From a virus: 35,672 nucleotides of DNA. Of the stretch, positions 2,002 through 35,212 are shown in pieces (position 1 is the stretch's first letter; every line of letters begins with the position of its first letter). Under the pieces are notes generated by a model, which did no database searches, was not told the DNA's origin, and worked only from the letters and a program-made list of their open reading frames with translations. Position numbers and translations under genes: made by a program. The stretch spans positions 1 to 35,672 of the IMG/VR virus record IMGVR_UViG_3300004807_000063; one strand, 5' to 3'.

Positions 2002-2394
2002 TTAAGCGCCCATTGTCAGGAACGCGATACTTGTGACATCACTTGCTGCTGCTAGTTGACCTGAAACGCCATGAACATCTGCTGTGGCATCAAAGTGAGC
2101 CTGCATATCTGTCATGTCTTGTGCTGAGATAACGTGGCGCACAACTGCGCCAGTACGGTGAGCCTGCGGGGTTGTGCTGTTGTAGCCACGAGTTACTGTG
2201 AAAGTAGTTGCTGCCGTTGTTCCAGTAACCAAAACCAATTCTTCAGATGCTGCGTTGTAGTCAAGCGCAAGAACGAATGGGTAATTAGTTGGGAAGCCAT
2301 TGGCTGCACTGAGGATAATGCTGGTAACGGATGAATTGATATTTCCGTTGATGGTTGTATCTTGCGCCGTAGCGCTGTAATAACGTTGTGGCAT
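2002..2394 (-). CDS. Small virion structural protein (130 aa)
   Basis: A 130-residue protein starting MPQRYYSATAQDTTINGNIN. It contains a beta-rich segment (SSVTSIILSAANGFPTNYPF, then EELVLVTGTTA and FTVTRGYN) that recurs in phage appendage proteins, ending with a short His/Asp-containing helix (DMQAHFDATADVHGVSGQL). The VTRGYNSTTPQAHRTGAVV stretch resembles YGRGFRDTTAQSHTAGTRV in the 296-residue protein just upstream, so the two may share a small beta domain. Probably a particle component; no enzymatic motif. Confidence 0.6.
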   Translation of the reverse strand: MPQRYYSATAQDTTINGNINSSVTSIILSAANGFPTNYPFVLALDYNAASEELVLVTGTTAATTFTVTRGYNSTTPQAHRTGAVVRHVISAQDMTDMQAHFDATADVHGVSGQLAAASDVTSIAFLTMGA

Positions 2395-25414: not shown

Positions 25415-25576
25415 ATGAGCAGAACTCTTACCGAGACTATTGGCGAGCACGCTACCAACGCACTACACGAAGCAATTCGTATTGCGTGGCAAGCGGGCTA
25501 TGACCAAGCGTTAATCGACATGCAAGAGCACGAACAACACATAAGCAACTTAGTTGCAGAAGATATCGGGGAATAA
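25415..25576 (+). CDS. Small acidic helical protein (53 aa)
   Basis: The ATG follows a strong AAGGAGGAG ribosome site. The 53-residue product MSRTLTETIGEHATNALHEA is helical and acidic, with WQAGYDQALIDMQEHEQH. Its stop overlaps the WhiB gene start (TAATG), so the two are translationally coupled. It may be a partner of the WhiB protein, but nothing shows that directly. Confidence 0.55.
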   Translation: MSRTLTETIGEHATNALHEAIRIAWQAGYDQALIDMQEHEQHISNLVAEDIGE

Positions 25577-25968
25577 TGAGCAACTGGCAAGAACGGGGAG
25601 CGTGCTCAGGGACTGACCCTGAGGCGTTCTTCCCCGAATACAACCGCGACGTGGAGAATCAGAAGGAGCAGGTACTCGACGCACTTAACGCGCTCAGGGT
25701 CTGCTCTTTCTGTACCGTATCAAGAGAGTGTTTCGCTTATGCGATGGCACACGATGACTCAATAAACGCTGGGATATACGCTGGCACTCTCGCATTCGAG
25801 AGGCAACGCATAGCCAAAAAACAGGGCAGAGTCGTCATCTCAGGAGGCGCACCACGGTTAGAGCAAGCAATCAGGCGACACGCTAATAGGCAACAAATCG
25901 CCGTTCCCCCGTTAGGAGTAGAGCCATTAAACGAATCACTAAGAAGGCAGCAGCAACGCTCAGCATAG
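25576..25968 (+). CDS. WhiB-family iron-sulfur transcriptional regulator
   Basis: The 130-residue protein has the WhiB layout: MSNWQERGACSGTDPEAFFP, then the four cluster cysteines C10, C43, C46 and C52, with CSFCTVSRECFAYAM around the last three. The usual G-[VI]-W-G-G turn is replaced by GIYAG, followed by a basic C-terminus (ERQRIAKKQGR). WhiB proteins bind a 4Fe-4S cluster and the housekeeping sigma factor to change promoter choice, and are essentially confined to actinobacteria and their phages. Made from the early operon, it could shift host transcription to phage genes. It overlaps the next gene by 43 bases. Confidence 0.88.
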   Translation: MSNWQERGACSGTDPEAFFPEYNRDVENQKEQVLDALNALRVCSFCTVSRECFAYAMAHDDSINAGIYAGTLAFERQRIAKKQGRVVISGGAPRLEQAIRRHANRQQIAVPPLGVEPLNESLRRQQQRSA

Positions 25969-31192: not shown

Positions 31193-31517
31193 TGGCCTCA
31201 ACCTCTTCTTCTATCTCTCGCAAGATGTACTGGACTATCTCTGGGTTTTCCTTGAGCATATCTACTACATGGTAACCAACAATGTCGCAAACTTCCTCAA
31301 CATCAAAGCGCTTACGAGTAGACATCGGAGTCTCAAAGATAATGGCATGAGTAATCTCATGCACAAAGACACGAATTAATTTATCCTCTGGCAAATCAGG
31401 GCGTAACTCAATGGTGTTAGTCTCAGATGTAGTCATGCCATATGCATCTTTATCTTCAAGGGTGTACTTAATCTTATACTTCTGCCCGAAGATTTTGATG
31501 GAGGTAGGCCGCTTCAT
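31176..31517 (-). CDS. HExxH zinc metallopeptidase-like protein (113 aa)
   Basis: The 113-residue product contains IRVFVHEITHAIIFE with HEITH at 53-57, the zinc-binding and catalytic motif of ImmA/IrrE or SprT-like small metallopeptidases. A third ligand may lie in the Glu-rich C-terminal half (FDVEEVCDIVGYHVVDMLKE). ImmA-like proteins cleave repressors; SprT-like proteins remove DNA-crosslinked protein. Either would suit a replication operon. Coupled to the TOPRIM gene by ATGA. Confidence 0.7.
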   Translation of the reverse strand: MKRPTSIKIFGQKYKIKYTLEDKDAYGMTTSETNTIELRPDLPEDKLIRVFVHEITHAIIFETPMSTRKRFDVEEVCDIVGYHVVDMLKENPEIVQYILREIEEEVEASGGPI

Positions 31518-32149
31518 GCCGCTAGTCGTTCCTCAAACCATGAATTACCATGCTGTAAGTATACCTCATTCACGTCCGTATTGTCGGGTAAGTGAATAAT
31601 TTCGGCTTTGTCTAAATCTTCCTTGATTCTTTTGGCAAGTTCCTGCCCAGGATTACGTCCATCCTCTTTAACATCGTTGTCTGCGAAGATAAGTATGCGC
31701 GAGTACGACTCGAATAACTTAGGAAACCAGGGTTTCCATTGAGATACACCAGCCACCCCAACGCTAGGTATGCCTGCGCAACCCGATAGGATAATGGTAT
31801 CAATCTCGCCCTCGCATATGGCAATCGTATCGCTCTGCTTATGCAAATCATTAACATTAAACAGGCCAATCTTTTGGCCCGTAGGCCAAAGATACTTTGG
31901 GGTACCTTCATCTAATCTCCTAAACTTGATACCCACCACACCAGCGGGAGTACGATAAGGGATGGAGAGCATACCTTCAGCAAGTTCATGGCCAGCACTA
32001 GGCTCCACGACGCTTCCAAGAAGGAACGTACGGCTTACTTCCTGACTGATGCCTCGTGCCTCTAGGTAAGAGGCTGCCCGTGGCGTTAGATTGTTGGAGT
32101 ACCTTTCGGCTGCTTCCGTGAGCAATAGCCTCTGCTTTTCGTTTAGCAT
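31514..32149 (-). CDS. DNA primase TOPRIM-domain protein
   Basis: The 211-residue product starts MLNEKQRLLLTEAAERYSNN and shows the DnaG-type core: ASYLEARGISQEVSRTFLLG, IPYRTPAGVVGIKFRRLDEG, then the TOPRIM motifs ICEGEID (E113) and FADNDV (D157, D159), and LPDNTDVNEVYLQHG. It synthesises RNA primers with the zinc-finger protein encoded just upstream, whose frame overlaps it by 152 bases. No helicase domain is fused; the RecA-like ATPase is a separate gene. A GGAAGGA lies about 12 bases before the ATG. Confidence 0.85.
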   Translation of the reverse strand: MLNEKQRLLLTEAAERYSNNLTPRAASYLEARGISQEVSRTFLLGSVVEPSAGHELAEGMLSIPYRTPAGVVGIKFRRLDEGTPKYLWPTGQKIGLFNVNDLHKQSDTIAICEGEIDTIILSGCAGIPSVGVAGVSQWKPWFPKLFESYSRILIFADNDVKEDGRNPGQELAKRIKEDLDKAEIIHLPDNTDVNEVYLQHGNSWFEERLAA

Positions 32150-32366
32150 CTTTGAAATCCAATCCTTCCTTTGCTTGCACTAATGTGTATACATCTCCGA
32201 GCACCTGACAGACGAGACAGTTATATGCCTGGTTATCAAGGTTATACGCTGCGCTGCTGTGGGTATCATCATGGATGACACACTTGCAGGCTATCCACCC
32301 ATGCTTGTCTATGACTGTCAGGCCATAGTGCTCAAGCACTGCGCCAAGGTCAGGCTTAGATACCAC
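31998..32366 (-). CDS. DNA primase CHC2-type zinc-finger protein
   Basis: The GTG start overlaps the upstream nuclease gene by 11 bases. The 122-residue product has the CHC2 zinc finger: C29, H32, C50 and C53 within CKCVIHDDTHSSAAYNLDNQ and YNCLVCQ. This domain recognises single-stranded template DNA for the primase. Ordered sequence ends near KDAKRKAEAIAHG; beyond that the frame overlaps the TOPRIM gene by 152 bases and becomes Ser/Arg-rich. The two may be separate subunits or joined by a +1 frameshift. Confidence 0.8.
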   Translation of the reverse strand: MVSKPDLGAVLEHYGLTVIDKHGWIACKCVIHDDTHSSAAYNLDNQAYNCLVCQVLGDVYTLVQAKEGLDFKDAKRKAEAIAHGSSRKVLQQSNATGSLLPRGTRHQSGSKPYVPSWKRRGA

Positions 32367-32712
32367 CTTGTACTCTCAACCACTGGTCTAAATCTTGGAT
32401 GACCCATGACTGTTCAAGCCCTGCCATACGGCGCTTGACGATGACATAGGCTGGTGGAACAGCATCTAGGTTGCGTGCCTTGGCGTAGTTAAAGGCTTCA
32501 GTTGTAGCCTCACGCCAGAACTGTGGCAGGTCCATCTTGGCTGTTGCCTTCAACTCAAAGATATACGGTTGGCCTGCAACAATGCATACGACGTCACCCT
32601 CATCGTCTTTGCCTGCCAACCGTAATCTCTCTGCATTCACCCCTTTAGAGCGAAACCATTTGAGGATGCCTGTTTCAAACAGGGCGCCCTTACGCTTATT
32701 TGCTGCACTCAC
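32356..32712 (-). CDS. Holliday-junction-resolvase-like PD-(D/E)XK nuclease
   Basis: The GTG start overlaps the helicase TGA (GTGA) and has GGAG nine bases upstream; a TTG five codons earlier is less likely. The 118-residue product, SAANKRKGALFETGILKWFR onward, has a PD-(D/E)XK site: E13, D40 in EGDVVCIV, E53 and K55 in YIFELKATAK. The size and KRKG-N-terminus match archaeal-type resolvase or VRR-like nucleases in phages. It likely resolves recombination intermediates. Confidence 0.8.
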   Translation of the reverse strand: MSAANKRKGALFETGILKWFRSKGVNAERLRLAGKDDEGDVVCIVAGQPYIFELKATAKMDLPQFWREATTEAFNYAKARNLDAVPPAYVIVKRRMAGLEQSWVIQDLDQWLRVQGGI

Positions 32713-33536
32713 TGTACGCTTCTCCAACTCTCGGCTATCTGGTAGCCCTGTCTGTCTGAATACATACTCATTCTACTGGCGTCAGCCCACAAAGTTACAA
32801 AGTGGTCCCCAGTTGCAGAGTGTCGTGCAAATCTATTCTTGACTGCAGCAACCCTGAACTCACCTGAATGTGGCACCAATGCCACAGTAAGAATCATTTC
32901 GGGTAGTTGTGCAATCTTGCCTTGGATAGCCTTACGGCTAGGTGGCATATCGGCTTTACCTTCAGCCTCTGAAGTGTGATGCAGAAGTAGAACAGCAGCA
33001 TCAGTCTCACGTGCAATGTGGTGCATAGCCTTGGCTATCTCACGAAGGCCAGACCATTCATCACCTTGCATGGAGACAACGTTCATAGCGTTGTCCACAA
33101 TAATCATATGGGGATACTCACCATATGCCTCGCCATAGGCTCGGATTGCTAAGTCAATCTCGTCAAGTGTTGGGCTTGGTGCGAAATCAAATTGCAGATG
33201 GCTGATGCTTGCTAGTTCTTGTGTGTAGAAATCTTTCCCCATCCCAGTAAGAAAGGCTTCTTCAACGGTAGACACTTGGTGTCCTGTGGCCATGGCTGAT
33301 GCACGAATGGCGGTAGTGTACGCATCTGTATCAGCACTGATATAGAGCGTAGGTACTTTCATCTGCACTGCAAGCCATAAGGCGATAAGTGATTTGCCAG
33401 CATTTGGTTGCCCAGCAATCATAGTCAATTGTCCTCTGCGAAAACGTATCCCTTCGCTTTGCAACGAAGGGAAAACGTCTGGCAGTATCTGAAAGTCGTG
33501 ACTGCTATTGGCTGCTGCTTGGGTGAGCGACAGCAC
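32709..33536 (-). CDS. DnaB/RecA-like replicative helicase ATPase
   Basis: The GTG start has AAGG within the preceding stop region. The 275-residue product has Walker A GQPNAGKS at 42-49, Walker B MIIVDN at 144-149 (D148), and VLLLHHTSE, the post-Walker-B sensor of DnaB and RecA-like folds. The N-terminal primase-interaction domain of DnaB is absent, so this is a stand-alone motor. It probably unwinds DNA with the split primase. It is followed by the resolvase-like nuclease (GTGA coupling). Confidence 0.85.
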   Translation of the reverse strand: MLSLTQAAANSSHDFQILPDVFPSLQSEGIRFRRGQLTMIAGQPNAGKSLIALWLAVQMKVPTLYISADTDAYTTAIRASAMATGHQVSTVEEAFLTGMGKDFYTQELASISHLQFDFAPSPTLDEIDLAIRAYGEAYGEYPHMIIVDNAMNVVSMQGDEWSGLREIAKAMHHIARETDAAVLLLHHTSEAEGKADMPPSRKAIQGKIAQLPEMILTVALVPHSGEFRVAAVKNRFARHSATGDHFVTLWADASRMSMYSDRQGYQIAESWRSVQ

Positions 33537-33544
33537 GAGTTACC

Positions 33545-33916
33545 TTAGCGAAGGAACTTAGGAGCGCACTGGTCTGGTGTGCCTTGTGGAGATGGGCAGA
33601 ACCAGCCCTTCCACTCCTTAGGCGCACCTGGCTTGCTGGTGCGATAGACCAACTTACCGTGCTTACAATGTCCTTCTTCAATGACTGATGACTGTGCTGG
33701 TGCTGCTACTGGTGTAGCGCCAAGGCCCTGTGCTAATGCACGGGCTGCGCCTGCTGATGAGAGTGATGCAGATACTGAGTTAATCAGTGCTGCTGTGTCC
33801 TGAATGGTAGACAGGCTACCCTCAAGTTCTGCACTATCTGCTGCGTAGATGTTAACCAATGTTCCATCAGACAACTTAAAGTTGACTTGGAACTTTGTGT
33901 TTTCGTTTGCTGCCAT
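33545..33916 (-). CDS. Probable single-stranded-DNA-associated or zinc protein (123 aa)
   Basis: A strong AAGGAG precedes the ATG. The first 45 residues (FQVNFKLSDGTLVNIYAADS) are beta-rich; the centre is Ala/Ser-rich and helical; the C-terminal 40 residues hold EGHCKHGKLVYRTSKPG and WKGWFCPSPQGTPDQCAPKF, a Cys/His module recurring in actinophage proteins. It lies between the nuclease and helicase genes, where single-strand-binding or recombination mediators often sit. The function is a guess from position. Confidence 0.55.
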   Translation of the reverse strand: MAANENTKFQVNFKLSDGTLVNIYAADSAELEGSLSTIQDTAALINSVSASLSSAGAARALAQGLGATPVAAPAQSSVIEEGHCKHGKLVYRTSKPGAPKEWKGWFCPSPQGTPDQCAPKFLR

Positions 33917-33926
33917 TTGTTTCTCC

Positions 33927-34583
33927 TTATTTTATTTCTGCTAGTGGGTCGTAAATCTGTGCTAGTTGTCCTCCGACTGCGTAACAATATTCCTTCACAC
34001 CGCAAGTACCACAGGACATTCCAATGTTAGGCAAGAATATCTCTTGCTCTAAGCCTCGTGCAAACTGAGCAAATAGTTCTGTTAGTAGTGGGATTGTCCA
34101 ACGGTCAAGCCCAACTGCCTCAATGAACTGTGCTTTACGTGCCGAGTAGTAATAACCTTTTGATGGGCGGATGCCAAACTGCATCTCCATCATGGATGCA
34201 TAGACACCCAACTGCAATGAAGAGTCAGGCATATAAGAGCCAGTCTTGAAATCCACCACCGCCAATTCACCAGCGGGGGTGACAACTATAGCATCTGCAA
34301 AGGCTTTGATAGGTACTTCACCGAAGTTATTGTTGAACTCAATTTCAACACCTGGCACATTCTGTGGAGAAACCCATATCTCAAACTGAGATTCCTGCCA
34401 AGCATTGATGAAGTCAAAGAACATCTTCTTGCCGTTCTCATCCCACCAAGCCTTGTTCTCTTTGTCAGGATTATCCTTGGTGGCTCTTCCACCACGACGC
34501 CAGTCAGTTGGATTTGTACCAGACTTGTTTTCTGCTTCAGCAATCTGTTGAATGAATGACTCATTCCACATCTCATCCCACAT
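33927..34583 (-). CDS. Cas4/RecB-like nuclease, C-terminal part (separate gene)
   Basis: The start MWDEMWNESFIQQIAEAENK has GGAG seven bases upstream. The 218-residue product carries the catalytic half of a PD-(D/E)XK exonuclease: D97 in AFADAIV, VVDFKTG with D111 and K113, SLQLGVY with Q124, and three clustered cysteines C191, C194 and C200 (CGTCGVKEYC). Cas4/AddB-type nucleases need a fourth cysteine and a His motif near the N-terminus; both are found in the separate gene at 34991-35212. Two small genes lie between. Whether the halves assemble is untested. Confidence 0.8.
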   Translation of the reverse strand: MWDEMWNESFIQQIAEAENKSGTNPTDWRRGGRATKDNPDKENKAWWDENGKKMFFDFINAWQESQFEIWVSPQNVPGVEIEFNNNFGEVPIKAFADAIVVTPAGELAVVDFKTGSYMPDSSLQLGVYASMMEMQFGIRPSKGYYYSARKAQFIEAVGLDRWTIPLLTELFAQFARGLEQEIFLPNIGMSCGTCGVKEYCYAVGGQLAQIYDPLAEIK

Positions 34584-34773
34584 CAGAAGTCTCCACAATT
34601 CCAAAGACAATCTCAACTGCCTTCTTCATGCCAGCAATAGTGGCTGGGTTAGTTTCAGTCTTGATTGCTTCCTCAATCTGCGCTGCAAGATTGCGTCGCA
34701 TAATAACTTCAGCCTCTACGAATGACTTCATAAAAGCATCTCGGCTAATAATCTTTGCGTGTTTGCGTCCCAT
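34573..34773 (-). CDS. Small helical protein between nuclease halves (66 aa)
   Basis: MGRKHAKIISRDAFMKSFVE opens a 66-residue charged, helical protein (AAQIEEAIKTETNPATIAGM). It lies between the two Cas4-like parts and overlaps the C-terminal part by 11 bases. It resembles no family I know. It may have been inserted into an ancestral nuclease gene together with the 71-residue protein. Confidence 0.55.
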   Translation of the reverse strand: MGRKHAKIISRDAFMKSFVEAEVIMRRNLAAQIEEAIKTETNPATIAGMKKAVEIVFGIVETSDVG

Positions 34774-34775
34774 TC

Positions 34776-34991
34776 TTAATCCTTATCTATCGGCGTAACA
34801 ACTGTGGCAAGGCTATCGCAAAGGACACATCGGGCGCTAGTCCCGTACATTCCAATTTCAAAGTCAGTGTCAAACTTACACTGGACATTCCACCATTCGG
34901 AGCCACATGGACATACTCGTATTGGACCGAGCGAACGGTAATCTGCTTCTGCACCTGGCGTTGATTTAATGTTTCCAAGTTCAGCCTCCAT
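34776..34991 (-). CDS. Zinc-ribbon protein between nuclease halves (71 aa)
   Basis: The 71-residue product MEAELGNIKSTPGAEADYRS has VCPCGSEWWNVQCKF and ARCVLCDSLATVV, paired cysteines typical of a zinc ribbon. A similar CPCGS-W...EIG-Y...C..C pattern occurs in actinophage early proteins as I recall. Its ATG overlaps the N-terminal nuclease stop by one base. It may be an independent regulator or a partner of the nuclease. Confidence 0.6.
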   Translation of the reverse strand: MEAELGNIKSTPGAEADYRSLGPIRVCPCGSEWWNVQCKFDTDFEIGMYGTSARCVLCDSLATVVTPIDKD

Positions 34992-35212
34992 TAGAACGGT
35001 ACATCCATGTATTTGTCTTTGTACTGCTGCTTGCGAAATTCATTGAGCAGGAACTTCTCTGCTGCTGAGTGGAAGGCTTGGCCTCCTACAAACCACCATG
35101 CTGGTTCAGATGGCGCCTGTAACTTCCTCTCCAATTCCCATGCTTTACCGCAGCGAATCCAAGAAGAGAACGATGAAAAACTTCTATGTGCTACTACTGT
35201 TTCTTTCTTCAT
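34991..35212 (-). CDS. Cas4/RecB-like nuclease, N-terminal part (separate gene)
   Basis: The 73-residue product MKKETVVAHRSFSSFSSWIR holds CGKAWELERKLQAPSEPAWW (with C21) and FVGGQAFHSAAEKF (with H48). These are the first iron-sulfur Cys and the GxxxH motif I of a Cas4/AddB-like nuclease. It stops with DKYMDVPF, just where full-length homologues would continue into a helical linker. The missing domain is encoded at 33927-34583. It is the first gene of its operon, with no ribosome site; a promoter ends six bases before the ATG, so its message may be leaderless. Confidence 0.75.
   Translation of the reverse strand: MKKETVVAHRSFSSFSSWIRCGKAWELERKLQAPSEPAWWFVGGQAFHSAAEKFLLNEFRKQQYKDKYMDVPF

Follow-up and report, generated by a model that had tools for sequence, protein, structure and literature searches.

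We found that two genes at the right end of a viral genome record, N and C, are, judging from profile matches and alignment with relatives, adjacent pieces of one Cas4-like PD-(D/E)XK exonuclease. We consider it probable that the two chains assemble non-covalently into one nuclease, that the genes lying in the gap between them are passengers, and that the product resects DNA ends. The record, IMGVR_UViG_3300004807_000063 of IMG/VR, is used here over its whole length of 35,672 bases and is hereafter called the window. N and C form a minus-strand series with two small genes, Z and H, and all four overlap or are closely spaced (Table 1): the start codon of Z overlaps the stop codon of N, and H and C overlap by 11 nt. 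All four genes lie where the initial annotation had placed them, and the residue numbers that it gave were correct.

Table 1. Genes of the split nuclease locus and the two genes that follow it, with positions in the window.
Gene product	Position	Strand	Features
N part of nuclease, 73 aa	34991..35212	-	first cysteine of the putative Fe-S site, C21; GxxxH helix G44..H48
Z, zinc-ribbon-like protein, 71 aa	34776..34991	-	cysteines C27, C29, C55, C58
H, predicted helical protein, 66 aa	34573..34773	-	matches no known family
C part of nuclease, 218 aa, ATG start	33927..34583	-	PD-(D/E)XK core and three cysteines of the putative Fe-S site
L5 gp49-like protein, adjoins C	33545..33916	-	PF25690, E 2.6e-5
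DnaB-like replicative helicase	32709..33536	-	phrog_243, E 2.5e-70

The locus belongs to a replication/recombination module, in which the L5 gp49-like gene is the next gene; phage F5 (L066) and L444 likewise have a homologue of it after the nuclease. The order of nuclease and helicase is common to the phages RER2, P100_1 and D29, and a profile search of the window proteins placed RusA-like resolvase and primase genes beyond the DnaB-like helicase. The primase also consists of two overlapping genes (window 31514-32149 and 31998-32366, both on the minus strand), a phrog_360-like small part and a phrog_849-like part, and is thus a second two-piece enzyme in the module; P100_1 also lists two adjacent primase genes. 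According to its annotation, the window further codes for a WhiB-like regulator, a sigma factor, endonuclease VII, terminase, portal, capsid and tail proteins. The WhiB-like transcription factor (window 25576-25968, plus strand; PF02467, E 3.4e-14) is an indicator of an actinobacterial host, and together with the relatives described below it suggests that the host of this phage is probably an actinobacterium. No cas gene was found among the scanned window proteins and the annotated neighbors are phage replication genes, so we did not class the nuclease as a CRISPR-associated Cas4.

N and C both match the phrog_1870 exonuclease profile, N at positions 14-72 (E 2.4e-6) and C at positions 78-293 of 313 (E 1.8e-35), and they cover consecutive, non-overlapping stretches of it, in order. 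N also matches phrog_69 (E 1.5e-11). Against PF12705, which has a curated Pfam cut-off of 22 bits, C scores 49.5 bits (positions 74-246, E 6.9e-13) and N 14.6 bits, which is under the cut-off (positions 3-50, E 0.031). When joined in silico, for comparison only, N and C align end to end with the contiguous relative L419 (39.6% over 275 residues, E 7e-66), an alignment far beyond chance. The initial annotation had claimed one Cas4/AddB-type nuclease over two genes, with its cysteines divided one to three, and had proposed alignment with full-length relatives as a check; the ordered profile pieces and the L419 alignment bear this claim out. The PD-(D/E)XK motif with its glutamine (D97, D111-x-K113, Q124) and the upstream GxxxH are present but spread over the two genes, with E80 as a further core residue of C. 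The same holds for the four family cysteines, of which C21 lies in N and C191, C194 and C200 lie in C. Because every one of the 270 records that we compared has N and C as distinct genes, we class this nuclease as a split variant rather than as an ordinary member of PF12705.

The unsplit form also exists: contiguous freshwater relatives in IMG/VR (L407-L486) encode the nuclease in one frame of about 280 aa that continues through the junction. With contiguous homologues present and both halves maintained together, the locus qualifies as genes in pieces. One other contiguous nuclease, that of L065, looks frameshifted in its C-terminal half (at about 1690), which may be a sequencing error or real damage.

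The 270 IMG/VR locus records with both parts include many contigs more than once, and they reduce to 94 distinct N-to-C DNA intervals and 57 clusters at 90% identity. Throughout this window clade the two parts remain apart, with fused copies in 0 of the 270 records, and none of the 94 distinct intervals held a complete copy without N. The gene order is N-Z-H-C in 269 records and N-H-C in one (L040, which is without Z). Across relatives, the N stop and the C match lie 372 to 756 nt apart, in varying relative frames. A scan of bacterial genomes returned distant RecB/AddB-type host proteins, with no split phage copy among the matches inspected.

Since a split catalytic domain is a usual first sign of decay, the nuclease might be a decaying pseudogene that died with the split. 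The conserved residues argue against this: all of 23 N parts have C21 and H48, and all of 25 C parts have D97, D111, K113, Q124, C191, C194 and C200. E80 is invariant as well, and the C-part residues are so even in comparison with contiguous relatives. Specifically, the C motif is found in 45 of 45 unique complete C parts and the N motif in 70 of 71 unique N parts, the exception starting a few residues late and keeping the cysteine and GxAFH. The relatives in which the catalytic and cysteine residues are invariant reach down to 54-58% identity. Moreover, the median dN/dS is well under 1 for both parts (0.18 for N and 0.12 for C; 0.21 for Z and 0.21 for H), and no relative has lost one part. 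On the grounds of the invariant residues, these ratios and the retained arrangement, we rejected pseudogene decay, which we regard as exceedingly improbable. Loss of catalytic residues in relatives, a finding that the initial annotation had named as speaking against its interpretation, was looked for and occurred in neither part.

In addition, N and C have diverged together. In a set of 38 non-redundant phages, the pairwise distances between N parts and those between C parts show a correlation of 0.80. With Z and H held constant, the partial correlation is 0.59, a value that was reached in 0 of 2000 permutations. In a bootstrap over taxa, the 95% limits for the excess of the N-C correlation were 0.02-0.30 over Z-C and 0.03-0.31 over H-C. 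Because the genes for Z and H separate those for N and C, linkage alone does not explain this excess. The co-divergence can nevertheless partly come from shared inheritance of short genes. Together with the conserved arrangement, the invariant motifs and the low dN/dS, the co-divergence agrees with the earlier view that the split is kept rather than decaying.

To locate the break within the fold, we modeled the contiguous relative L419 (72-row alignment; pLDDT 95.3, pTM 0.91). The nearest solved folds to this model are AdnA (Z 16.3), ACE1 (15.8), AddB (14.6), Dna2 (13) and Cas4 (12.4). In the model, the junction falls in a loop at about residues 60-70, between a helix that carries GxxxH (41-59) and the next helix (71-86), and the length of this loop varies among contiguous relatives. 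The C part of the window modeled alone gives a recognizable nuclease core, which is confident (pLDDT 87.4 for the model), so C could conceivably be active without N. The pLDDT of the cysteine tail is 61-80 in this C-only model, compared with 92-96 for the same stretch in the contiguous L419 model. This lower confidence is weakly consistent with a tail that would need the N chain, and could partly reflect the alignment.

These models bear on the idea that C works alone, without a complete metal staple, and that N has taken up a task of its own, such as regulating or inhibiting C. C does hold the whole PD-(D/E)XK active-site core except for the GxxxH helix, and it can be modeled by itself at pLDDT 87. 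However, N retains precisely the family cysteine and GxxxH residues and little else, the three tail cysteines of C are kept although they would be pointless without the fourth, and the two parts co-diverge. We therefore consider this idea very improbable.

The split form is not confined to the clade of the window. In a second freshwater clade, made up of relatives of OX376640 and OX376641 (L219, L066 and L223-L302), N and C are also separate frames. These two records are the lytic isolates LanE43AprE7 and LanE43AprF5 of 'Ca. Planktophila' (PMC10202952), here E7 and F5, and thus the split form exists in cultured phages. The E7/F5 clade is split in the same loop as the window clade. Its N and C overlap directly in 76 loci (30 unique junctions), and C is invariably in the +1 frame there. 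In five further loci the two parts are set apart by other genes, which code for a basic protein of about 105-114 aa, accompanied in some by a 218-aa protein. The insertions at 2045-3017 in L259 (basic and 218-aa proteins), 2682-3011 in L287 and 2661-3005 in L293 are independent of each other. From these gap insertions, the N/C junction looks like a repeated landing site.

The constant +1 offset in the 76 direct joins means that a +1 frameshift could in principle fuse the two parts, and more broadly a single chain might still be made by frameshifting, intron splicing, ribosomal bypass or split-intein ligation. In the E7/F5 clade, however, an ATG in the C frame lies 5-17 nt before the N stop at every one of the 30 unique junctions, and the loci with other genes between the parts also speak against fusion. 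In the window clade, the two parts are separated by 372-756 nt, in any frame, a stretch occupied by conserved genes, each with a start of its own. Moreover, the residues that flank the junction in N and C resemble no intein on inspection. The window has no Rfam match at the gathering threshold, on which ground the intron explanation was rejected. Production of a single chain by any of these routes is thus highly improbable.

Z and H, the genes in the gap of the window clade, are themselves well conserved. Z is kept at the same place in 269 of the 270 records, with its four cysteines invariant, and H in all 270, with invariant residues A13, F14, F18, E22, M25, R26 and L29. Neither has a Pfam match or a match in the phage collection, and each gives only weak PHROG matches. 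H was seen in the window clade only. In most of L414-L486, a Z homologue is encoded directly upstream of the contiguous nuclease but on the opposite strand, and from this we conclude that Z is an independent neighbor gene that came into the gap. In L444, a divergent Z homologue (2126-2362, minus strand) shares a leftward operon with an HNH-like protein (1495-1860). To enter the split gene, Z would have had to change strand. Extra small genes also occur at the N/Z, Z/H and H/C boundaries among relatives of the window. Four of these variable gap genes (L009 3458-3598, L014 3458-3598, L018 3671-3808 and L020 3476-3589) share a hydrophobic motif of the type ISKW....D.LFFW....EW and look like one mobile small family.

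The initial annotation had suggested that Z and H might bridge the halves, in which case the working enzyme would be a four-protein complex, and the two genes do lie between the parts in nearly all window-clade copies. Since the E7/F5 clade is split without either gene between its halves, Z and H are needless for the split as such. L040 does without Z, Z homologues adjoin contiguous nucleases as divergent genes, and the Z-C and H-C correlations are below that of N and C. We give a bridging function very little credence. The earlier proposal of a divided and maintained nuclease thus stands, and its suggestion that Z and H connect the halves is not supported.

Each split clade is well supported in our trees (a FastTree tree and a 40-row tree in which two rows, SO_L282 and SO_L295, are largely unfilled), and the E7/F5 clade lies apart from the window clade, next to the contiguous L413, in the best tree. 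This grouping favors two separate breaks in the same loop, and the E7/F5 and window splits perhaps arose independently. However, an AU test did not reject one origin of all splits (p=0.18), and long branches meet near L413, so the splits may go back to one break or to two. It is tentatively conceivable, with the balance slightly against it, that an obligate two-chain Fe-S nuclease, locked by closure of its cluster, evolved twice independently at the same loop and that its break became a landing site for small genes.

Every cutting and cluster residue is kept across the two genes, and therefore the enzyme and its metal cluster are likely assembled from two chains. We propose that a Cas4-like (PF12705) Fe-S exonuclease of the replication/recombination module was broken at the loop after the GxxxH helix, and that the N and C polypeptides would be made separately from one operon and join non-covalently as one PD-(D/E)XK domain. 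The N chain would give the first cysteine and the histidine helix, and the C chain the metal-binding carboxylates, the lysine and the last three cysteines. An Fe-S (or possibly Zn) staple would then close across the two chains; the metal of this site is uncertain, as a related fold, 3L0A, holds Zn rather than Fe-S (PMC3466216). The site of the cluster most likely spans the N/C interface. Of the two outcomes foreseen by the initial annotation, a cluster formed across two chains or a dead nuclease, the first is strongly favored by conservation, dN/dS and co-divergence, and the second does not agree with the data. Z, H and other small genes may then have used the inter-helix loop as a landing site, and would travel as operon passengers outside the enzyme. 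The probable role of the product is to resect DNA ends in recombination and replication, as proposed for its relatives and suggested by its family and its neighbors.

If this model is correct, freshwater phages that probably have actinobacterial hosts carry a natural experiment on the Fe-S staple of Cas4/AddB-type nucleases. It would bear on the role of the cluster, which might be purely structural, and on its ability to close over a chain boundary. With two chains, cluster binding, DNA binding and cutting could easily be told apart, and an enzyme that is split by nature could be switched by supplying the second chain. Since the cultured phages E7 and F5 have the same kind of split, the two-chain idea is directly testable. 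More generally, surveys that throw out fragments would miss entire clades of working enzymes, and the break in a phage gene would have been used as a slot for small genes.

The closest described relatives are the Cas4-like exonucleases of actinobacteriophages, which have been described as a clade (PMC5704561). D29 gp69, RER2 gp48 and P100_1 gp36 (PF12705; phrog_1870/phrog_69) have the same motifs as the window nuclease at about 25-32% identity, and share its neighbors: a DnaB-like helicase, primase and a gp49-like protein. However, in these cultured phages the exonuclease is a single reading frame, whereas the window has two genes with others between them. Phage enzymes encoded by genes in pieces include NrdA of Aeh1, DNA polymerase gp43 of 25 and 44RR, and T4 topoisomerase gp39/gp60 (PMC2988022), and the split NrdA of Aeh1 and gp43 of phage 25 were reported to be functional and to reassemble (PMC2988022). 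As in these cases, the enzyme of the window is spread over two genes with other DNA between them. The known splits are associated either with homing endonucleases or with an untranslated spacer, whereas no homing endonuclease or intron was found at the window junction, with Z and H giving no nuclease-family match and the window no Rfam intron. A further difference is that the window enzyme is a nuclease with its predicted metal-cluster ligands divided between chains. In the open-access literature that we searched, with subscription journals largely outside this scope, we found no earlier report of a split Cas4-like phage nuclease, and as far as we could find, such a genes-in-pieces enzyme is apparently unreported for this nuclease family. 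AdnA, AddB, Dna2, ACE1 and CRISPR Cas4 have the same 1+3 layout of cysteines around a RecB-like nuclease, and in Sulfolobus Cas4 and AddB the four cysteines hold a stabilizing Fe-S cluster (PMC3466216). All of these proteins carry the four cysteines in one chain, whereas the phage of the window carries them in two.
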